Shown in pieces: positions 1,405 to 9,084 of a DNA stretch of 64,000 bases (position 1 is the first letter of the stretch; every line of letters starts with the position of its first letter). The position numbers and the translations under genes are program-made. The notes under the pieces were generated by a model. The model was not told where the DNA came from. It did not search any database and saw nothing but the letters and a program-made list of their open reading frames with translations. Source of the stretch: Gelidibacter gilvus (GTDB lineage Bacteria; Bacteroidota; Bacteroidia; Flavobacteriales; Flavobacteriaceae). The stretch is taken from NCBI RefSeq assembly GCF_004115975.1, contig NZ_SDDZ01000007.1, positions 124,001 to 188,000 of the forward strand, in the 5' to 3' direction.

Positions 1405-1418
1405 ATTTGCCATTGGTC

Positions 1419-1438
1419 ATTTCCGCGAAGGCGGAAAT
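1419..1438. repeat. Palindromic repeat (family A) upstream of GIY-YIG gene
   Basis: ATTTCCGC (1419-1426) and GCGGAAAT (1431-1438) form an 8-bp stem with a GAAG loop. It belongs to the same family as the hairpins in front of trpG, trpD, trpB, trpA, ddl and coaD, but is in the opposite orientation. A degenerate half copy (GATTTCCGCC) occurs at about 1775-1784, after the GIY-YIG gene, so the gene is bracketed by related sequence. Confidence 0.7.
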
Positions 1439-1466
1439 CCAAAGAATAAAGTAAGACTGTTACGCT

Positions 1467-1766
1467 ATGTTTCAAGAAAAGAACTTTTTTGTATATATCA
1501 TGATTAATAAAAACAACTCTGTAATTTATGTGGGTTTTTCAGGTCAAGTCTATGAACGGGTTCAACAACATAAGAAGAAATATAGCAAAGGATTTGCCAA
1601 CAAATACAATCTAAACAAACTTGTTTATTATGAAAAATTCGAATATCCAAACGAGGCCATTAAAAGAGAAAAACAAATCAAAAAGTGGAATCGTGAATGG
1701 AAAATTAACCTAATAAATGATTTTAATCCTAGTTGGGACGATTTATCACATTTTTTACAACCATAA
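1467..1766 (+). CDS. GIY-YIG domain nuclease-like protein
   Basis: The 99-residue protein is a minimal GIY-YIG domain of the short bacterial type: FFVYIMINKNN and VIYVGFSG form the two signature strands, followed by RVQQHKKK, a helix ending KREKQIKKWNREWKINLI and a short tail NPSWDDLSHF. Proteins of this length have a GIY-YIG nuclease fold, but their cellular role is not established. It lies between the trp attenuator and trpE, on the same strand, so it would be transcribed under tryptophan control. The gene is flanked by palindromic repeats of the family that permeates the operon, which suggests insertion of a mobile or repeat-associated unit. No intron or intein features are seen, so a homing role is not supported. 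Confidence 0.85.
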   Translation: MFQEKNFFVYIMINKNNSVIYVGFSGQVYERVQQHKKKYSKGFANKYNLNKLVYYEKFEYPNEAIKREKQIKKWNREWKINLINDFNPSWDDLSHFLQP

Positions 1767-1836
1767 AACATAAAGATTTCCGCCGAAGTTCAGCCTGAGC
1801 AATAGCCGAAACGCGTAAATAAATTCAGACATTCAA

Positions 1837-3240
1837 ATGAAGACCTACAGCCTACACACCCATCATAAAAAAATTCTCGCAGATACCATCACACCGGTGA
1901 GTATTTATTTGAAAATAAGGGATAAGTTCCCCAACAGTATTCTTTTGGAGAGTAGTGATTACCGCGCCAATGACAATAGTTTTTCCTATATCTGTTGCAA
2001 TCCTATCGCCTCCATTAAAGTTAAAAATGAGGTCATAACAGAAAGCTTTCCAGATAAAAGTCAGTCCATCCATCCCATTACACCAGAAACGAATGTAGCC
2101 AATGTGATCCATAAATTCACCAAACGTTTTAAAACGCATTCCGAAGATAAATTCAAGTTTATCAACAATGGTGTTTTCGGATATATCGCTTATGATGCGG
2201 TCCGTTATTTTGAAGACGTAGCCATTTCAAAAAAAGAAGGCCATCAAGATATTCCTGATATTTACTATGCAGTGTACCAAAACATCATCGCCATCAACCA
2301 TTTCAAAAATGAAGCGTATGTATTTGCCAATTGTTTTGATACAGAAAATAATATCCCGGAAATTCTACAACTCATCCAGTCAAAAAACTTTGCTGCTTTT
2401 AATTTTTCAACGGAGGGCGAAACAGTCTCCAACTTAACCGATGATGAATATAAAGACAATGTTGTCCTCGCAAAAAAACATTGTGCTAGAGGTGATGTCT
2501 TTCAACTTGTGCTGTCAAAAAAGTTTTCTCAGCAATTTAAAGGAGATGAATTCAATGTGTATCGCGCTTTACGCAGCATTAACCCCTCTCCTTACCTGTT
2601 CTATTTTGATTATGGCGATTTCAAGATTTTTGGAAGCTCTCCAGAAGCACAATTGGTCATAAATAAAGACAAAGCAGAAATCCATCCGATTGCAGGCACA
2701 TTCAAACGTACGGGTAACGACGAAAAGGATGCTGAACTCGCCAAACTCTTGGCTGTTGATGATAAGGAAAATGCAGAACACGTGATGCTTGTCGATTTGG
2801 CAAGAAACGATTTGAGTCGCCATGGAAGTCAGGTCACTGTGGAAAAATATAGAGAAGTACAATTCTTTTCCCACGTCATCCACTTGGTCAGCAAGGTGAC
2901 AGGTAAAAAACATAAGGACACCACCACCATGCAGATGGTCGCCGATACGTTTCCCGCAGGAACCTTAAGCGGGGCCCCTAAACACAAAGCCATGCAACTC
3001 ATTGAGAAATACGAAAAAACGAGTCGCGATTTTTACGGTGGCGCCATCGGATTCATGGATTTTAAAGGCAACTTCAATCATGCCATCATGATTCGGACAT
3101 TTTTGAGCAAGAATCATCAATTGCATTGGCAAGCTGGCGCAGGATTGGTTTCTAAGTCAAAACCCGAAGACGAATTGCAAGAAGTTTACAATAAGTTGGG
3201 GGCATTGACTAAGGCGATTGAGATGGCTAAAGATATTTAA
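1837..3240 (+). CDS. trpE: Anthranilate synthase component I
   Basis: TrpE converts chorismate and ammonia (delivered by TrpG) to anthranilate, the first committed step of tryptophan synthesis. The 467 residues are a normal length. The N-terminal domain has the LLESSD motif (about residues 35-40) used for tryptophan feedback inhibition. The chorismate-binding domain shows GDVFQLVLSKKF, PSPYLFYFDYGDF, GTFKRTGNDEKDAELA, MLVDLARNDLSR and FPAGTLSGAPKHKAM. It is the first biosynthetic gene after the attenuator and the GIY-YIG gene. A 194-bp gap containing two further palindromes separates it from trpG. Confidence 0.97.
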   Translation: MKTYSLHTHHKKILADTITPVSIYLKIRDKFPNSILLESSDYRANDNSFSYICCNPIASIKVKNEVITESFPDKSQSIHPITPETNVANVIHKFTKRFKTHSEDKFKFINNGVFGYIAYDAVRYFEDVAISKKEGHQDIPDIYYAVYQNIIAINHFKNEAYVFANCFDTENNIPEILQLIQSKNFAAFNFSTEGETVSNLTDDEYKDNVVLAKKHCARGDVFQLVLSKKFSQQFKGDEFNVYRALRSINPSPYLFYFDYGDFKIFGSSPEAQLVINKDKAEIHPIAGTFKRTGNDEKDAELAKLLAVDDKENAEHVMLVDLARNDLSRHGSQVTVEKYREVQFFSHVIHLVSKVTGKKHKDTTTMQMVADTFPAGTLSGAPKHKAMQLIEKYEKTSRDFYGGAIGFMDFKGNFNHAIMIRTFLSKNHQLHWQAGAGLVSKSKPEDELQEVYNKLGALTKAIEMAKDI

Positions 3241-3285
3241 TAGAATAAACAATGTCTAATACCAACCTGCAAGGTTTCAGAAACT

Positions 3286-3377
3286 AACCTGCAAGGTTTC
3301 AAAAACCTTGTAGGTTTAAAATGGCAAATAAAAATTATATAAAATTAGACCTGTCAGGTTTAAAAACCTAACAGGTC
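3286..3377. repeat. Two family-B palindromes in the trpE-trpG gap
   Basis: AACCTGCAAGGTTT (3286-3299) pairs with AAACCTTGTAGGTT (3303-3316), and GACCTGTCAGGTTT (3348-3361) pairs with AAACCTAACAGGTC (3364-3377), the second with one mismatch. An unpaired extra copy of AACCTGCAAGGTTTC lies at about 3264-3278. The same hairpin type, with different but matching arm bases, recurs in the trpF-trpB gap. There is no T run, so these are not intrinsic terminators. Confidence 0.75.
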
Positions 3378-3410
3378 TCAACCAAATAAATTAACATTTT
3401 AACACTCAGA

Positions 3411-3428
3411 TCCCCGCCTTCGCGGGGA
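3411..3428. repeat. Family-A palindrome abutting the trpG start
   Basis: TCCCCGC (3411-3417), loop CTTC, GCGGGGA (3422-3428). The ATG of trpG follows six bases later at 3435, so the 3' arm GGGGAA provides the only purine-rich ribosome-binding-like sequence. Confidence 0.75.
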
Positions 3429-3434
3429 ATAGAT

Positions 3435-4040
3435 ATGAAAATATTAGTTATAGACAATTACGACAGTTTTACTTATAATCTCGTCCATTATCTTGAAGAT
3501 TTGGGCTGTGAGGTCACTGTCCGACGCAACGATCAGCTCACGCTTGAAGAAGTAGATGCCTTTGAAAAGATCGTACTTTCTCCAGGACCAGGATTGCCTG
3601 ACGAAGCAGGATTATTAAAAGCCATCATTAAAACCTACGCACCCACAAAAAGTATTTTAGGAGTTTGCCTCGGTCAACAAGCCATTGCTGAAGTGTATGG
3701 CGGCACATTAATCAATCTCGATAATGTATATCACGGCGTAGCTACCAAAGTCACCAGTTGCGTTACCGATGAATCTCTCTTCAACGGCTTGGATAAAACC
3801 ATTGAAGTCGGCCGTTACCACTCTTGGGTGGTCAATCCTAATTTACCTGAAGTATTGGAAGCCACTTCCTTTGACGAAAATGGTCAGGTGATGTCCTTGC
3901 GCCACAGAACATACGATTTAAAAGGGGTACAATACCATCCTGAATCGGTGTTGACACCGGATGGGAAAAAGATATTGGAAAATTGGATTAAAATTCCTGC
4001 GCCTGCCCGTCCGGCAGGCGGGAAGGCAGGGATCTTATAG
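3435..4040 (+). CDS. trpG: Anthranilate synthase component II (glutamine amidotransferase)
   Basis: TrpG hydrolyses glutamine and passes ammonia to TrpE. It is a class I amidotransferase with the catalytic triad visible: Cys78 in GVCLGQQ, and His168 and Glu170 in GVQYHPES; VIDNYDSFTYNLVHYL opens the domain. The natural fold appears to end near KKILENWIKI (residue about 187). The remaining residues, PAPARPAGGKAGIL, are encoded by a composite palindrome (3993-4033), so the C-terminus has been extended by repeat sequence. The start at 3435 sits immediately after a palindrome that supplies a GGGGAA motif. Confidence 0.96.
   Translation: MKILVIDNYDSFTYNLVHYLEDLGCEVTVRRNDQLTLEEVDAFEKIVLSPGPGLPDEAGLLKAIIKTYAPTKSILGVCLGQQAIAEVYGGTLINLDNVYHGVATKVTSCVTDESLFNGLDKTIEVGRYHSWVVNPNLPEVLEATSFDENGQVMSLRHRTYDLKGVQYHPESVLTPDGKKILENWIKIPAPARPAGGKAGIL
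3993..4033. repeat. Composite palindrome encoding the TrpG C-terminal tail
   Basis: An inner stem GCCTGCC (4001-4007) and GGCAGGC (4013-4019) lies within outer arms that begin ATTCCTGC (3993-4000) and end GGCAGGGAT (4025-4033). It overlaps the last 12-14 codons of trpG and runs almost to its stop codon. A similar composite palindrome lies in trpF at 6703-6743. Confidence 0.65.
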
Positions 4041-4190
4041 GATCAACAACGTTAATCCTTTCGGCTCAGCGACATTAATCCTTAAGTTTAAGGTAAGCAA
4101 ACGCTTCGAGAAAAGAGGATGAAAACAAAAGGGGTTACATCGTATCAAAAATTAGTTGATCTAGAAAAAATTAAGTTTAACAACAAAAGA

Positions 4191-4208
4191 TCCCCACTTT
4201 CGTGAGGA
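4191..4208. repeat. Family-A palindrome abutting the trpD start
   Basis: TCCCCAC (4191-4197) and GTGAGGA (4202-4208) form a stem with one mismatch. The sequence GAGGAA at its 3' arm is placed as a ribosome-binding site for the ATG at 4215. Confidence 0.7.
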
Positions 4209-4214
4209 ATGAAC

Positions 4215-5210
4215 ATGAAACACATACTCAACAGACTCATCAACCAAGAAAGCATCTCTAGCGACGAAGCCAAACACGTCTTGGTCAACATATCAAAAGG
4301 AAACTACAATCAAAGTCAGATTGCCTCTTTCCTCACGGTTTATATGATGCGAAGTATTACCATCGAAGAATTGCAAGGTTTTAGGGATGCGCTCTTAGAA
4401 TTGTGCCTGCACGTGGATTTAGCCGATTATAACGGCATCGATTTATGTGGCACGGGAGGCGACGGAAAAGACACCTTTAATATTTCAACTCTGGCATCCT
4501 TTGTCACTGCCGGTGCTGGTGTCAATGTTACCAAACACGGTAACTACGGCGTTTCTTCTGCCTGCGGTTCTTCAAACGTTATGGAATATTTGGGCATTAA
4601 ATTTACCTCTGACCTTGATTTCTTAAAACGATCCTTGGACGAAGCCAGCATTTGCGTTTTGCACGCGCCGCTCTTCCACCCTGCCATGAAAAATGTAGCG
4701 CCCATCCGAAAGGATTTGGCAGTAAAAACCTTTTTTAATATGTTGGGACCTATGGTTAATCCCGCGTTTCCAAAAAACCAATTGGTAGGTGTTTTCAACC
4801 TAGAATTACTAAGAATGTATAGCTACCTTTATCAAAACACAGATATTAATTATACCATTCTTCATGCCTTGGATGGCTATGATGAAATCTCATTGACCGG
4901 TCCAACTAAAGTCATTCGGAACACTACAGAAACAATGATCTCACCCGAGTTTTTCGGATTAAACACTTTAAAACAAAGTGATATATATGGTGGTGATTCT
5001 GTAGCTGAAGCCGCCAAAATTTTTATACAGATATTGGATGGTCAAGGTAGCGAAGCACAAAATAACGTCGTATGTGCCAATGCCGCCATGGCGATTGCTA
5101 CGGTAAACAATACATCTGTAGAAGATAGTTTTGGACTGGCAAAAGATGCCCTATTGAGCGGAAAAGCAAAAGAGAAATTTGAGAGATTAGTTGAAATAAG
5201 TGGAGTTTAG
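4215..5210 (+). CDS. trpD: Anthranilate phosphoribosyltransferase
   Basis: TrpD transfers the phosphoribosyl group of PRPP to anthranilate. The glycine-rich PRPP site reads LCGTGGDGKDTFNIST, followed by TKHGNYGVSSACGSSNVMEYLG and the conserved HPAMKNVAPIRKDLAVKTFFNMLGPMVNPA. Length (331 residues) is normal. An in-frame ATG at 4209 overlaps the palindrome 3' arm; the ATG at 4215 is preferred because GAGGAA then lies at ribosome-binding distance and the layout matches trpA (ATG after TGAAC). A gap of about 170 bp with no other gene precedes it. Confidence 0.96.
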   Translation: MKHILNRLINQESISSDEAKHVLVNISKGNYNQSQIASFLTVYMMRSITIEELQGFRDALLELCLHVDLADYNGIDLCGTGGDGKDTFNISTLASFVTAGAGVNVTKHGNYGVSSACGSSNVMEYLGIKFTSDLDFLKRSLDEASICVLHAPLFHPAMKNVAPIRKDLAVKTFFNMLGPMVNPAFPKNQLVGVFNLELLRMYSYLYQNTDINYTILHALDGYDEISLTGPTKVIRNTTETMISPEFFGLNTLKQSDIYGGDSVAEAAKIFIQILDGQGSEAQNNVVCANAAMAIATVNNTSVEDSFGLAKDALLSGKAKEKFERLVEISGV

Positions 5211-5290
5211 TCCGGCAGTCTGCAGTTGGCAGTCAACAGAAAACACACAACACATAACAGACAACAGACCAATAATTAAAGATTTTTTAA

Positions 5291-6073
5291 ATGAATATTT
5301 TAGATCAAATAGTTAATGATAAGCGCAAAGAAGTCGATCTAAGACGATCACTCATTCCTACGTCACAATTGGAACAATCGGTTTTGTTTGAAAGAGATTC
5401 GATCTCACTAACGGAACGATTAAAAAACAGCGATTCAGGCATCATTGCTGAACATAAACGTCGTTCGCCTTCAAAATCCATCATAAATCAAAACCTTAAT
5501 GTGTTTGACGTAGCACAAGGTTATGAATCGGCTGGAGTTTGTGGGATGTCAGTTTTAACCGATGGCAAATATTTTGGAGGTTCTATGGACGATTTACTAT
5601 TGGCAAGAGCCAGTTGTAATTTGCCTTTGTTAAGAAAGGAATTTATCATCCATACGTACCAAATCTTGGAAGCCAAAGCTTATGGCGCAGACGTCATTTT
5701 GCTCATCGCGTCCATTTTATCAAACATAGAAATTAAGAGATTTTCAGAATTTGCAAAAAGCCTCAACCTCGAAGTGCTTTTGGAAATCCATAATGAGGAA
5801 GAATTGCATAAATCGGTGATGCCAAGTTTGGATATGATCGGCGTCAACAATAGAAATTTAAAAACCTTTGAGGTCAGTTTGGAGACAAGCAAACGTTTGA
5901 GCACGCTAATTCCAGATGACTTTATAAAAATATCAGAAAGTGGTATCAGCAACGTTTCATCTATTAAAGAGTTACAACCTTATGGTTACCAAGGTTTTTT
6001 AATAGGAGAAAACTTTATGAAAACCGATAATGCCGGGGAAAGTGCAAAATCATTTATCAAAAATCTAATTTAA
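5291..6073 (+). CDS. trpC: Indole-3-glycerol phosphate synthase
   Basis: TrpC converts CdRP (carboxyphenylamino-deoxyribulose phosphate) to indole-3-glycerol phosphate. The TIM-barrel signatures are present: ILDQIVNDKRKEV at the N-terminus, IIAEHKRRSPSKSII, GMSVLTDGKYFGGS, LLRKEFIIHTYQILEAKAYGAD, LEVLLEIHNEEEL, IGVNNRNLKTFEV and ISESGISN. The length of 260 residues is typical, with no palindrome inside the gene. The 80-bp gap before it contains a GCAGTCTGCAGTTGGCAGTC-type repeat at about 5214-5233 that recurs near 44.98 and 45.85 kb. trpF starts 9 bp downstream. Confidence 0.97.
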   Translation: MNILDQIVNDKRKEVDLRRSLIPTSQLEQSVLFERDSISLTERLKNSDSGIIAEHKRRSPSKSIINQNLNVFDVAQGYESAGVCGMSVLTDGKYFGGSMDDLLLARASCNLPLLRKEFIIHTYQILEAKAYGADVILLIASILSNIEIKRFSEFAKSLNLEVLLEIHNEEELHKSVMPSLDMIGVNNRNLKTFEVSLETSKRLSTLIPDDFIKISESGISNVSSIKELQPYGYQGFLIGENFMKTDNAGESAKSFIKNLI

Positions 6074-6082
6074 AAATCTAAA

Positions 6083-6862
6083 ATGAACGCTAAAAACTTC
6101 ATTCATAAGCCGAATCAAACTCCCTCTCCTTCGGAGAGGGCTGGGGTGAGGATAAAAGTCTGCGGTATGAAATACATCCAGAACATCACTGATATTGCGA
6201 CGCTTCAACCTGATTATCTCGGATTTATATTCTATGAAAAGTCCAGCAGATATTTCAATGGCACGATTCCGGAATTACCATCAGGCGTGAAAAAGGTCGG
6301 TGTTTTTGTAAACGCAACGGTTGAGGAAATTATAGACAAGGTTGAAAAACATAGTTTGGATTTGGTTCAACTGCATGGGGACGAATCGCCGGAGTTTTGT
6401 AAAGAACTAAATGGTCTTCTTACGAAAATAGATCGGGATAAAAATGCTGATAAGGATAAAAATTTAGAGATTCCTGCCTACGCAGGAATTTTGAAAGTGT
6501 TCTCAATCAAAGACCATTTCAATTTTGACGAATTAGAACCTTACGAATCGGTGTGTGATTACTTTTTGTTTGATACCAAAGGTAAGTTACCAGGCGGCAA
6601 CGGCTATACGTTCAATTGGGAAGTTTTAAAAGATTATCCTTCCAACAAGCCTTATTTTTTAAGTGGCGGGATTGGTTTGGAGGAAGTTAATAATGTAGCA
6701 GAATTCCTGCGCTCGCCTGACCGGCAGGCAGGCAGGCAGGAATCCCAATTTTGCCATGCCATCGATGTCAACAGTAAATTCGAAATTAAACCTGGATTGA
6801 AGGATTTGGAAAAGTTGACAAAATTTAAACAAATGATTAACAAGTTTGATACTATCAAATGA
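6083..6862 (+). CDS. trpF: Phosphoribosylanthranilate isomerase with three palindrome-encoded inserts
   Basis: TrpF isomerises phosphoribosylanthranilate to CdRP. Catalytic Cys27 (IKVCGMKY) and the Asp in LFDTKGKLPGGNGYTF are present, as are VGVFVN, LVQLHGDE, FLSGGIG and AIDVNSKFE. At 259 residues it is some 45-55 residues longer than usual. The excess maps to three palindromes read in frame: PSPSERAG in an N-terminal extension (6122-6140), EIPAYAGI in a loop after residue 110 (6470-6489, preceded by a charged KIDRDKNADKDKN stretch) and RSPDRQAGRQESQ between NVAEFL and CHAIDV (6703-6743). The core motifs around each insert remain intact, so the enzyme is probably active. A GTG at 6146, just upstream of IKVCGM, is an alternative start that would exclude the first insert. 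Confidence 0.93.
   Translation: MNAKNFIHKPNQTPSPSERAGVRIKVCGMKYIQNITDIATLQPDYLGFIFYEKSSRYFNGTIPELPSGVKKVGVFVNATVEEIIDKVEKHSLDLVQLHGDESPEFCKELNGLLTKIDRDKNADKDKNLEIPAYAGILKVFSIKDHFNFDELEPYESVCDYFLFDTKGKLPGGNGYTFNWEVLKDYPSNKPYFLSGGIGLEEVNNVAEFLRSPDRQAGRQESQFCHAIDVNSKFEIKPGLKDLEKLTKFKQMINKFDTIK
6122..6140. repeat. Palindrome 1 inside trpF (N-terminal extension)
   Basis: CCCTCTCC (6122-6129), loop TTC, GGAGAGGG (6133-6140), followed by CTGGGGTGAGGAT. It is translated in frame just before the first conserved TrpF motif, or forms part of the leader if the GTG at 6146 is the true start. Confidence 0.75.
6470..6489. repeat. Palindrome 2 inside trpF (family A)
   Basis: ATTCCTGC (6470-6477), loop CTAC, GCAGGAAT (6482-6489). 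It is identical in arms and loop to copies in the trpF-trpB gap (7414-7433 and 7505-7524), but here it is translated as IPAYAGI. Confidence 0.8.
6703..6743. repeat. Palindrome 3 inside trpF (composite family A)
   Basis: Outer arms ATTCCTGC (6703-6710) and GCAGGAAT (6736-6743) enclose an inner stem GCCTG (6715-6719) and CAGGC (6725-6729) and a short GGCA repeat. It is read in frame between two conserved TrpF segments. Confidence 0.75.
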
Positions 6863-6900
6863 ACTAAAAAGACGGAGTTTCCAGCCAGTTCAGGTCACCA

Positions 6901-7524
6901 GACCTGACAGGTTTCTAAAACCTGTCAGGTCTCTCAAACCATAAATGCGGTGATTAACTCTAGGTTGAATTTTAAAATTTCGAACAGATCAAGAATGGAA
7001 AATTATAGTTTAGAAAATCAAAGATTTAAAAGGAAAATAAACATTAGATTCCTGCCTGCGCAGGAATAAATTGGAATAACCCAGACCTCACAGGTTTTGA
7101 AAACCTGTGAGGTCTCTTGAACCATAAATGCGGTGATTAACTCTAGGTTGAACTTTAAAATTTCGAACAGATCAAAAATGGAAAATTATGGTTTAGTAAA
7201 TCAAAGATTTAAAAGGAAAATAAATATGAGATTCCTGCCTGCGCAGGAATAAATTGGAATAACCTGACCTGACAGGTTTTAGAAACCTGTCAGGTCTCTT
7301 GAATCATAAATGCGGTGATTAACTCTAGGTTGAATTTTATAATTTCGAACAGATCAAGAATGGAAAATTATAGTTTAGAAAAATCACAGATTTAAAAGGA
7401 AAATAAATATGAGATTCCTGCCTACGCAGGAATAAATTGGAATAACCTGACCTGACTGGTTTCTCCCGATAGCTATCGGGACTGAAAGGTCTTTTAAACA
7501 CGAGATTCCTGCCTACGCAGGAAT
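6901..7524. repeat. 182-183-bp tandem repeat array in the trpF-trpB gap
   Basis: Three full units begin at 6901, 7084 and 7266, and a shortened fourth begins at 7449. Each unit has a family-B hairpin (arms such as GACCTGACAGGTTT and AAACCTGTCAGGTC, 6901-6931, 7084-7114, 7266-7296), about 115 bp of AT-rich spacer beginning ATAAATGCGGTGATTAACTC (at 6941, 7124, 7306), and a family-A hairpin ATTCCTGC/GCAGGAAT (7048-7067, 7231-7250, 7414-7433). The fourth unit lacks the spacer, carries CCCGATAGCTATCGGG (7465-7480) and ends in the hairpin 7505-7524 next to trpB. The second unit's family-B arms changed on both sides (CTCACAGG with CCTGTGAG), preserving pairing. No gene was seen in the 670-bp gap. 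Confidence 0.85.
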
Positions 7525-7531
7525 GAGGAAT

Positions 7532-8713
7532 ATGACATACAACATCAACGAAAAAGGGTATTACGGCGAATTTGGCGGCGCATACATTCCAGAAATGCTC
7601 TACCCCAATGTGGAAGAATTACGTCAAAACTATTTGAAAGTTATGGCAGAACCTGAATTCCAAGAAGAATTCAATGCACTACTTAAGGATTATGTGGGAC
7701 GCCCTTCCCCTCTCTATTTCGCAAAGCGAATGAGTGAAAAGTACAACACCAAAATTTATTTAAAACGAGAAGACCTCAACCATACCGGCGCTCACAAAAT
7801 CAACAACACCATTGGTCAGATCTTGATGGCGAAACGCCTCGGAAAAAACCGCATCATTGCAGAAACTGGTGCGGGTCAACACGGTGTAGCCACAGCAACA
7901 GTATGTGCGCTTATGGGATTGGAATGCATCGTCTATATGGGCGAGATTGACATTGCGCGTCAGGCGCCCAACGTGGCACGCATGAAAATGTTGGGCGCTA
8001 CTGTAGTTCCCGCACTTTCTGGAAGTCGCACCTTAAAAGATGCTACCAATGAGGCCATTCGCGATTGGATCAACAATCCTGTGGATACCCATTATATTAT
8101 CGGTAGTGTGGTTGGCCCACATCCTTATCCTGATATGGTAGCGCGTTTCCAAGCTATTGTTTCCGAAGAAATCCAATGGCAACTCAAAGAAAAAGAAGGC
8201 ACAACAAAACCCAATTATGTGGTGGCCTGTGTTGGTGGCGGTAGTAATGCTGCAGGCGCTTTTTATCATTTCTTGGACGATACGGAGGTCAAGCTTATTG
8301 CTGTCGAAGCTGCCGGAAAAGGGGTGCATTCTGGAGAAAGTGCTGCTACCTCAATTTTAGGTAAGGAAGGCATCATCCACGGCAGTAAAACACTGTTGAT
8401 GCAAACACCCGACGGACAGATTACGGAACCTTACAGTATTTCGGCAGGACTGGATTATCCTGGTGTAGGGCCAATGCACGCCCATTTATACAAAAGTGGA
8501 CGTGCGGAATTCATCGCCATTACAGATGATGATGCCATGACCGCAGGTCTGCAGTTATGTAAAATGGAAGGTATCATTCCTGCCATTGAAAGTTCTCATG
8601 CTTTGGCAGTTTTTGAACATAAAAAGTTTCAACCTGAAGACATCGTTGTGGTTAGTCTTTCTGGACGTGGGGATAAGGATTTGGAGACTTATATCAATCA
8701 TTTTAAACTATAG
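7532..8713 (+). CDS. trpB: Tryptophan synthase beta chain
   Basis: TrpB condenses indole and serine to tryptophan using PLP. The sequence has [15 protein letters not shown] at the N-terminus, [15 protein letters not shown], the PLP lysine in [39 protein letters not shown] and [12 protein letters not shown]. The start at 7532 gives 393 residues and a normal N-terminus with GAGGAAT just upstream; an ATG at 7523 lies within the palindrome arm and is less likely. It is separated from trpF by the tandem repeat array and from trpA by a 371-bp gap. Confidence 0.97.
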
Positions 8714-9084
8714 TATTATAATTATTATGGCGTTACCCTAAAGGGTCAGGCTGTCGGCAGTCGCTCTCTTCGAGGAGTTCCAACAATGCCTCCATCCTTA
8801 ACGCAAATTCGGCATATCAATTAAAAATCGACATTTATATTTTATTGATTAAAATTAAATTCCTTACCTTTTTTTAAGGGAAGGTGGACTCAGTTTCAGT
8901 TTAGAAACTGAAGAAGGAAGGGTTTCTTTAAAATAAATAAACCCCTCAACTTCATCACGTTTTCTCGAGATGAACTTCTCCTTTTTAAGGAACAGAATTA
9001 AAAGTTTAAATTACGAAATGAGATTCCTGCATCCGCAGGAATATGGTTTAACTAATAAGATTCCCGCCTTCGCGGGAAGTGAAC
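8714..9084. repeat. trpB-trpA gap filled with palindromic repeats
   Basis: No gene is seen here. The gap contains ACCCTAAAGGGT (about 8735-8746), an AAGGTAAGGAA-type inverted pair around 8862-8884 (CCTTACC ... GGGAAGG), a segment TCAGTTTCAGTTTAGAAACTGA (about 8890-8911, quoted in part: CAGTTTAGAAACTG), ATTCCTGC/GCAGGAAT with loop ATCC (9023-9042) and TTCCCGC/GCGGGAA with loop CTTC (9061-9078). The last sits directly before the trpA start. None of them has the T run of an intrinsic terminator. Confidence 0.7.

Follow-up and report, generated by a model that had tools for sequence, protein, structure and literature searches.

Dispersed palindromic repeats read in frame in trpF of Gelidibacter gilvus, a recurrent landing loop in Flavobacteriaceae TrpF, and a candidate GIY-YIG mobiliser

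Why does the trpF gene of Gelidibacter gilvus encode a phosphoribosylanthranilate isomerase (PRAI) that is some 50 residues longer than usual, and why do three palindromes lie in frame within it? The gene occupies positions 6083-6862 (plus strand) of the window analysed here, a stretch of 64,000 nucleotides (RefSeq assembly GCF_004115975.1, contig NZ_SDDZ01000007.1, positions 124,001 to 188,000), and an earlier sequence-only reading of the window had attributed the surplus to three in-frame insertions of a mobile or copyable unit. The explanation that we favour, with a probability of roughly 0.8, is that the inserts are copies of dispersed palindromic repeats, those at the second and third sites being repetitive extragenic palindromes (REPs) of the CGTC type, that they are in-frame survivors in tolerant loops, and that a small GIY-YIG nuclease is their most likely mobiliser. 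Coordinates refer to the window; L and G numbers are our handles for loci and genomes, G000 being the genome of the window.

Palindromic repeats within an intact TrpF

The open reading frame (ORF) at 6083-6862 encodes 259 aa without stops, matches the PRAI family (PF00697, E 4.5e-32, profile search) and is modelled by AlphaFold as a beta/alpha barrel with a mean predicted local distance difference test (pLDDT) score of 83. Because the solved structures of monofunctional PRAIs comprise 203-205 aa and an empty orthologue, L014, 206 aa, the surplus amounts to about 50 residues, in keeping with the 45-55 residues of the sequence-only reading. The three palindromes, at 6122-6140 (site 1), 6470-6489 (site 2) and 6703-6743 (site 3), lie exactly where that reading had placed them, and in frame; the gene contains two perfect stems of at least 8 bp, compared with a mean of 0.14 and a maximum of 2 in 300 dinucleotide shuffles. 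We rejected the possibility that trpF is a pseudogene: the ORF is whole in this strain, and in 110/110 trpF loci the best ORF spans the TrpF profile end to end with no stop.

At site 2, the element at 6470-6489 (minus strand), ATTCCTGC-CTAC-GCAGGAAT, is read IPAYAGI and consists of a perfect 8-bp stem starting with AT and a 4-nt loop, the stem and loop of the CGTC-1 type, as do its copies in the trpF-trpB spacer. According to the part of Di Nocera, De Gregorio and Rocco (2013; PMC3733652) used here, CGTC REPs have an 8-bp stem starting with AT, a loop of 4 or 5 and a CGTC, TGTC or CCTC tag at one end; in the window's copy, the flanking tag is lost. The element is dispersed and multi-copy: the pattern ATTCCTGCNNNNGCAGGAAT occurs at 63 sites in G000 and in 14/44 genomes searched, with 0 matches for the reversed-pattern controls. 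Furthermore, the identity of 6470-6489 with non-coding copies at 7414-7433 and 7505-7524, noticed in the earlier reading, holds letter for letter. As a whole, site 2 (6413-6489, plus strand), in the alpha4-beta5 loop, is probably a decayed head-to-head REP dimer with a degenerate GGTC... left half and a CGTC-1 right half, as suggested by a comparison by eye with the CGTC...GAC dimers found at the same codon in L005, L006 and L090. The sister genes L002, L003 and L004 carry the site-2 element (IPACAGI, IPAFAGI), a repeat of another kind (RLPRFARND type) is found at this site in L005 and L006, and both are absent from L007-L009.

Site 1 holds a repeat of non-CGTC type, CTCCCTCTCC-TTC-GGAGAGGG-CTGGGGTGAGG (6120-6151, plus strand), which includes the palindrome with a perfect 8-bp stem and a loop of 3 and lies within an N-terminal extension (residues 1-22). 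The repeat unit recurs in the same genome, directly ahead of another start codon (G000:C12:29954), and the extension of 21-22 residues is found in six Gelidibacter genomes and is missing from L007-L009. In the window's gene, GTG at 6146 is a possible alternative start. In three of the six genes with the extension (L003, L004 and L005), no in-frame ATG, GTG or TTG occurs between the upstream ATG and KVCGM/KICGM, and therefore the site-1 segment should be translated there.

Site 3 (6703-6743, plus strand), in the alpha7-beta8 loop, is an expanded element in which an 8-bp outer stem (ATTCCTGC/GCAGGAAT) encloses a nested palindrome, GCCTGACCGGCAGGC. In sister genes, the corresponding codons are taken up by the plain 20-nt form, without any extra length (perfect in L002, one mismatch in L004 and L005), and relative to these sisters the window's gene is expanded by 21 nt, or 7 residues. 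Among 101 distinct trpF genes, 13 are within 2 mismatches of the element at this site, whereas 400 synonymous resamplings of the same peptides gave 0.3 on average and never more than 3; the element is complete with tag and tail (TGTC-ATTCCTGC-NNNN-GCAGGAAT-YYA) in five of the 101 genes, and 95 of the 101 are of equal length at the site. The element may have arrived either by copying from another element (replacement) or by an old insertion that eroded in most lineages.

Thus, copyable, dispersed palindromic units are indeed read in frame within an intact enzyme, but the proposal of three insertions of one mobile unit is not supported, because site 1 belongs to another repeat family and site 3 is a repeat-like stem that left the length unchanged in sisters and expanded later. 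The equation of each surplus segment with a palindrome stands in part: the repeat accounts for only about 7 of the 18-22 or so surplus residues at site 2 and about 10 of 21 at site 1, and at site 3, where sisters have the stem without surplus length, only the 7-residue expansion of the window's gene adds length. The empty sites that insertion would predict exist within the genus (L007-L009 lack both site 1 and the site-2 palindrome), yet close orthologues also share the segments. The site-2 insert is common to four Gelidibacter genomes, including that of the window, and the site-1 insert to six; the inserts are thus not recent, and half of the refuting condition set in the sequence-only reading applies.

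The AlphaFold models bear out the expectation that the inserts fall in loops, with site 1 ahead of beta1, site 2 in the alpha4-beta5 loop and site 3 in the alpha7-beta8 loop, all of which lie on the face of the TIM (triosephosphate isomerase) barrel opposite the active site. In the model of the window's TrpF, residues 1-20, 121-130 and 211-220 have block-mean pLDDT values of 38-60, and beta5 is entered through the IPAYAGI residues, which score about 85. In the L100 model, 159 of 255 residues score at least 90, and the 65-residue loop is of low confidence (102-145 under 50), to which shallow alignments of the insert contribute.

The alpha4-beta5 loop across Flavobacteriaceae

The site-2 loop is a landing site of several repeat families across Flavobacteriaceae. 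We assembled 110 trpF loci, 30 from a genome search and 80 named ones from the genome collection, which encode 101 distinct core proteins. The length of the site-2 loop in these proteins ranges from 6 to 65 aa, and the neighbouring TrpC and TrpB are nearly constant in length (-1 to +2 and -1 to 0, respectively). Six repeat families (A to F) were defined after the loops had been read; the loose patterns gave many chance matches (for family B, 32/100 trpC and 20/100 trpB genes) and were hence tightened, with C-F kept at their first settings. With the strict patterns, 35 of the 101 loops contain at least one of the six families (B 16, E 9, D 6, A 5, C 5, F 4), 30 are empty (at most 12 aa) and 36 are long but unmatched; in the controls, the strict A and B patterns match 1/100 trpC and 2/100 trpB genes, and C-F match 1/100 and 0/100. 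The loop bias is stronger than the sequence-only reading proposed, a single TrpF loop having been hit, over a whole bacterial family, by several repeat families unrelated to one another.

In a direct count of stems, 18 perfect stems of at least 8 bp fall in 7.09 kb of loop sequence, compared with 7 in 77.7 kb of trpC and 6 in 117.7 kb of trpB (together 13 in 195.4 kb), a 38-fold excess. Many of the inserts resemble head-to-head CGTC...GACG dimers. The tag YGTCW is present in 32 of the 70 loops of at least 14 aa, at a density of 7.7 per kb versus 1.8 in trpC/trpB. In 27 of these 32 tagged loops, the tag lies 0 (6 loops), 3 (10), 9 (8) or 13 nt (3) from the anchor codon, and there are therefore at least four separate left junctions. 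The repeats themselves are widespread, with ATGCTGAANNNNNTTCAGCAT in 22/27 genomes (control in 1) and TCGAGCGNAGTCGAGA in 23/27 (control in 0).

The mechanism that we propose starts from dispersed palindromic repeats scattered through Flavobacteriaceae genomes, which would supply the copies. Inside a conserved gene, copies would persist only where the frame is kept and the fold is tolerant, and the alpha4-beta5 loop of TrpF and, less so, the alpha7-beta8 loop and the N-terminus would be such places, reused by different repeat families. Survivorship of this kind would account for the hot spot, and the resident elements may then decay, expand and be exchanged between copies.

Small GIY-YIG genes beside the repeats

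At the head of the trp operon, 25 nt past a REP, the window contains a small GIY-YIG nuclease gene (1467-1766, plus strand; 99 aa; PF01541, E 4.9e-17), which is also present in L253 and whose product is the proposed REP-mobilising enzyme. The REP (1415-1441, plus strand) is of the CGTC-1 type with tag, stem and tail, GGTC-ATTTCCGC-GAAG-GCGGAAAT-CCA, and is found at the same place in L253 with a TGTC tag. Elsewhere in the same genome, a GIY-YIG gene is preceded by four ATTCCTGC elements about 265 bp apart, with truncated copies of that gene, and in G007 and G001 a related gene directly follows trpB, between two ATTTCCGC elements. In another Flavobacteriaceae genus (L345), the trpF site-2 family lies on both sides of a GIY-YIG gene, in inverted orientation.

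Small GIY-YIG genes tend to be flanked by such repeats outside this genus as well. From 33 matches in the plasmid collection, 14 were fetched and 12 were usable (L316 and L320 were left out), 9 of them alphaproteobacterial and one each from gammaproteobacteria, Bacteroidota and cyanobacteria. Of these 12 loci, 8 have tagged elements upstream, 9 have them downstream and 8 have them on both flanks, compared with 5/72 far windows (p = 2e-9). The both-side loci are all alphaproteobacterial (L311-L315, L317, L322 and L323), with L313 and L315 representing one neighbourhood in two Shinella strains, and the nearest pair of elements is inverted in six of the eight (L311, L312, L313, L315, L322 and L323). 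Flanking of the gene on both sides by the same tagged repeat, the layout of a REPtron, is thus seen in 8/12 plasmid loci, as well as in the inverted L345 and in the L346 array. At L318 and L319, the elements bear other tags or lie on a single side, and L321 (Spirosoma), L324 (Planktothrix) and L318 do not score; by eye, inverted TGTCAT...ATGACA repeats lie beside L321 and L324.

Within Flavobacteriaceae, a family element lies upstream in 13 and downstream in 8 of the 24 loci taken from other genera, against 4/72 far windows (upstream p = 9e-7). The family patterns for this comparison were drawn up after the Gelidibacter upstream regions had been read, so that the Gelidibacter count (15/28 versus 14/84) is not independent, and the upstream sequences of the 24 other loci were then unread, apart from listed perfect hairpins. 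For tagged elements, the first Flavobacteriaceae set gave a weak signal (4 upstream and 2 downstream of 27 versus 4/181, p = 0.011), and the second (6 and 6 of 21 versus 3/78) is not evidence, L345 and L346 having been chosen with their adjacent repeats known and L346 counting several times.

The repeat families also follow the nuclease phylogeny. On a tree of 52 Flavobacteriaceae GIY-YIG proteins, 7 changes of repeat family suffice for the 31 labelled rows, where shuffled labels take 18.7 on average and never fewer than 14, and on a tree of 97 GIY-YIG domains, 55 labelled rows need 15 (mean 38.7, minimum 33), with the qualifications that the label classes of the 55 rows were refined after the loci had been seen, that the signal is partly taxonomic (alphaproteobacterial rows group together), that shuffles ignore relatedness and that near-copies inflate the result. 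Groups V, E and CD each cover several genera. The six ATTCCTGC rows alone do not form one clade (5 changes, with 54/500 shuffles as low).

These associations make the GIY-YIG nuclease a strong candidate for the missing enzyme of the CGTC REPs; the proposed role is that the small nuclease, its gene flanked by the same repeats, would mobilise them. The broader proposition, that small GIY-YIG nucleases (about 80-150 aa, PF01541) are dedicated mobilisers of CGTC-type REPs, with nuclease clades owning repeat families and the TrpF alpha4-beta5 loop as a recurrent landing site, we hold at even odds.

Three further arrangements were seen at such genes. In L346 (G026 C20:45100-47700), TGTC-ATTCCTGC REPs and small GIY-YIG genes, whole or in pieces, take turns in a tandem array; in L317 (Azospirillum lipoferum), the REP-flanked gene lies between sufB and sufC; and in L246, L258 and L284, members of another small GIY-YIG group are preceded by an apparent 5' tRNA piece, judged by eye, that a GC-rich palindrome interrupts.

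Other copies and competing explanations

The trp operon of the window has the order trpE-G-D-C-F-B-A (G, C and F assigned by family search; E, D, B and A by ORF reading). Non-coding copies of the site-2 element lie on the plus strand in the 183-bp array of the trpF-trpB spacer (7048-7067 and 7231-7250), followed by the two identical copies at 7414-7433 and, directly ahead of the trpB start, 7505-7524 (both plus strand); another lies in the trpB-trpA spacer (9023-9042, plus strand). The spacer at 6898-7445 consists of three tandem copies of about 183 bp, the second 93% and the third 74% identical to the first, each holding two palindromes, AGACCTGACAGGTTT...AAACCTGTCAGGTCT and ATTCCTGCCTRCGCAGGAAT. 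An expanded element, IPAPARPAGGKAGIL, occupies the final 15 codons of trpG (3993-4033, plus strand), beyond the end of the TrpG-type profile matches, which stop at residues 184-187 of 201. In L016, L018 and L019, trpF and trpB are fused into one open frame of 609-623 aa, the L016 junction being a REP read IPAFAGMTEI, and in L089 and L139 trpF likewise runs on into trpB.

Intragenic landing of the repeats is general but uncommon. The stretches of four genomes that were sampled hold 75 copies of the element, of which 9 are located well within six ORFs, 11 at ORF edges and 55 outside any ORF of at least 120 aa; the six ORFs are, by sequence reading, trpF, two purL, one argS, one ketoacyl-synthase-like gene and one membrane protein, and the sample cannot rank trpF against other genes, as its trpF copies come from G072, the genome of a known carrier (L116). 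In-frame REPs were also observed in other conserved genes, namely L194 and L215 (purL-like), L185 (argS-like), L173 and L230, with the purL REP at the same linker in two genomes. The statement that trpF is the only conserved gene with an internal REP in the genome of the window was dropped, as a copper-ATPase-like gene has REPs too and only part of the 63 copies was inspected. That ORF (L149 1703-2604 and beyond, contig C11 of G000) has three similar N-terminal metal-binding domains with REP-encoded linkers (EEIPASAGIM, EEISAFLPAGQAGAGIM) and the look of a domain duplication that ran through repeats; like site 3, it shows an alternation of plain and expanded forms, with a plain element between the first two metal-binding domains in L149 and an expanded one at an apparently matching place in L232 (G006).

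Several observations weigh against the account given here. Of the 101 loops, 36 are long and fit no repeat family; the window's own site-2 copy has TAGAG at its left and TTTGA at its right in place of a tag; and site 3 became a REP with its length unchanged, which simple insertion cannot do. TrpC, a TIM barrel of the same operon, is without such inserts, so that survivorship alone fails to explain the hot spot and there may be a target preference. The repeat load speaks for the account, the 17 genomes whose loop is occupied having a median of 9 TCGAGCGNAGTCGAGA copies and the 10 with an empty loop a median of 1.5 (one-sided p = 0.004), but in this comparison genomes were picked by loop state and some counts include the trpF copy itself, and the difference for the ATGCTGAA family is weak (p = 0.07); as the rows are phylogenetically related, the test values are optimistic. 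For the nuclease, the tagged-element test is not significant in Gelidibacter alone, where the tagged form scarcely occurs beside these genes (upstream 1 and downstream 0 of 30; upstream 0 and downstream 1 of 18), where, as in the first Flavobacteriaceae set, the tags look eroded. Perfect stems alone upstream of small GIY-YIG genes are not significant either (16/52 versus 2/19 for long GIY-YIG genes, p = 0.12, after removal of 4 cut loci and 1 control), and physical association with repeats is no proof of mobilisation, as the GIY-YIG genes could be hitchhikers within repeat pairs.

The rival that survives best, possible but in our judgement unlikely, is that insertion took place only a few times, long ago and near the root of Flavobacteriaceae, and is not ongoing, the elements having since been subject to decay, loss and exchange of their halves. 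On the tree, the loop changes between occupied and empty at least 13 times, gain and loss are indistinguishable, and one old insertion that later diversified and was lost in places can stand in for many separate gains, which also counts against our account. The tags sit at only a few left junctions, and in Gelidibacter, L001-L004 and L005-L006 have the left position at site 2 in common and differ in the right half, as such a history would predict. Against it, complete elements with perfect stems and the current genomic consensus persist in scattered genera, the junctions number at least four and carry different families, and 24/25 TrpF matches from other families of the class are without a surplus above 1 residue (G137 shows 12, from coordinates).

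That RAYT (REP-associated tyrosine, Y1) transposases move the repeats, as is thought for GTAG REPs, with the GIY-YIG genes as passengers, is rather improbable. Y1_Tnp matches are indeed present in 7/9 genomes of Gelidibacter, with high numbers in G006 (9) and in G000, G004 and G008 (4, 8 and 7, respectively), which are rich in repeats, but a search for perfect stems found a CGTC-like one in 0/10 fetched Y1_Tnp loci (L057-L066, 2.3-3.3 kb each), and it is the GIY-YIG clades that track the repeat families, in a comparison made for GIY-YIG genes only. In other species too, RAYT genes are unflanked by CGTC REPs, as far as the consulted part of Di Nocera et al. (2013; PMC3733652) goes.

That the hairpins are retained because they regulate the trp operon or have a role in its mRNA (stability or translation coupling) appears more doubtful still. 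The operon is rich in elements, with 7 of the 9 CGTC-like stems of the window at 1419-9042, and in four species the site-2 stem keeps 4/4 fourfold sites versus 25/49 elsewhere; this conservation is, however, not significant (0.51 to the 4th power, about 0.07), and many sister genes are without the element. Finally, it is scarcely credible that the site-2 loop is merely length-variable, low-complexity coding sequence with coincidental palindromes, an idea that the unmatched loops and the 15-nt direct repeat of an ordinary tandem expansion (6431/6449) would suit and that the 38-fold stem excess over trpC and trpB and the exact dispersed-repeat consensus contradict, already for the 35 matched loops.

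Our preferred explanation, copies of dispersed repeats surviving in frame, concerns a phenomenon of known type in a new setting. The neisserial repeat dRS3 has the layout ATTCC...GGAAT over 20 nt, which the 20-nt elements described here resemble. In the text of Di Nocera et al. (2013; PMC3733652) available to us, dRS3 is classed as CGTC-1, the name shared with our elements, and differs from them in lying mostly in large clusters in Neisseria, a comparison made by description. The same text covers in-frame REPs, both Rickettsia palindromic elements (RPEs) and intragenic CGTC REPs, and identifies RPE-4 and RPE-6 as CGTC elements, so that the parallel with Rickettsia drawn in the sequence-only reading is real: in-frame palindromic insertions in functional protein genes there and in an intact enzyme gene here. 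The setting here is another phylum and other families, likened by description rather than by Rickettsia sequence. With the CGTC REPs of that paper, our repeats share, as far as its consulted part describes them, the 8-bp stem starting with AT, a loop of 4 or 5, in part of the copies (the trpF copy of the window not among them) the CGTC/TGTC tag, a CCA-like tail, head-to-head dimers, dispersal, occasional location in ORFs and the lack of a RAYT flank; they differ in the use of one enzyme loop by several families across a bacterial family and in the repeat-flanked gene of a candidate enzyme. In this respect, they resemble the RAYT REPtrons of GTAG REPs, in which a gene is likewise flanked by repeats thought to be mobilised by its product, an HUH/Y1 transposase there and a GIY-YIG domain protein here. 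Word searches of open-access titles and abstract starts, which are no proof of absence, yielded among the matches listed neither a trpF insertion hot spot nor anything linking GIY-YIG with bacterial REPs.

To conclude, what is new is the much larger setting and the family-wide TrpF hot spot, in which a selfish-looking small repeat repeatedly reshapes the same loops of a core metabolic enzyme, in effect an experiment by nature on how a classic TIM barrel tolerates insertions. In addition, the GIY-YIG nuclease offers a testable candidate for the spreader of CGTC REPs, for which the consulted part of the 2013 paper (PMC3733652) reports no enzyme and which, according to it, include dRS3 and two Rickettsia palindromic elements. 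If this is true, a very common gene family, the small GIY-YIG genes, would gain a function, and a second REP-mobilising chemistry would stand beside that of the HUH transposases.
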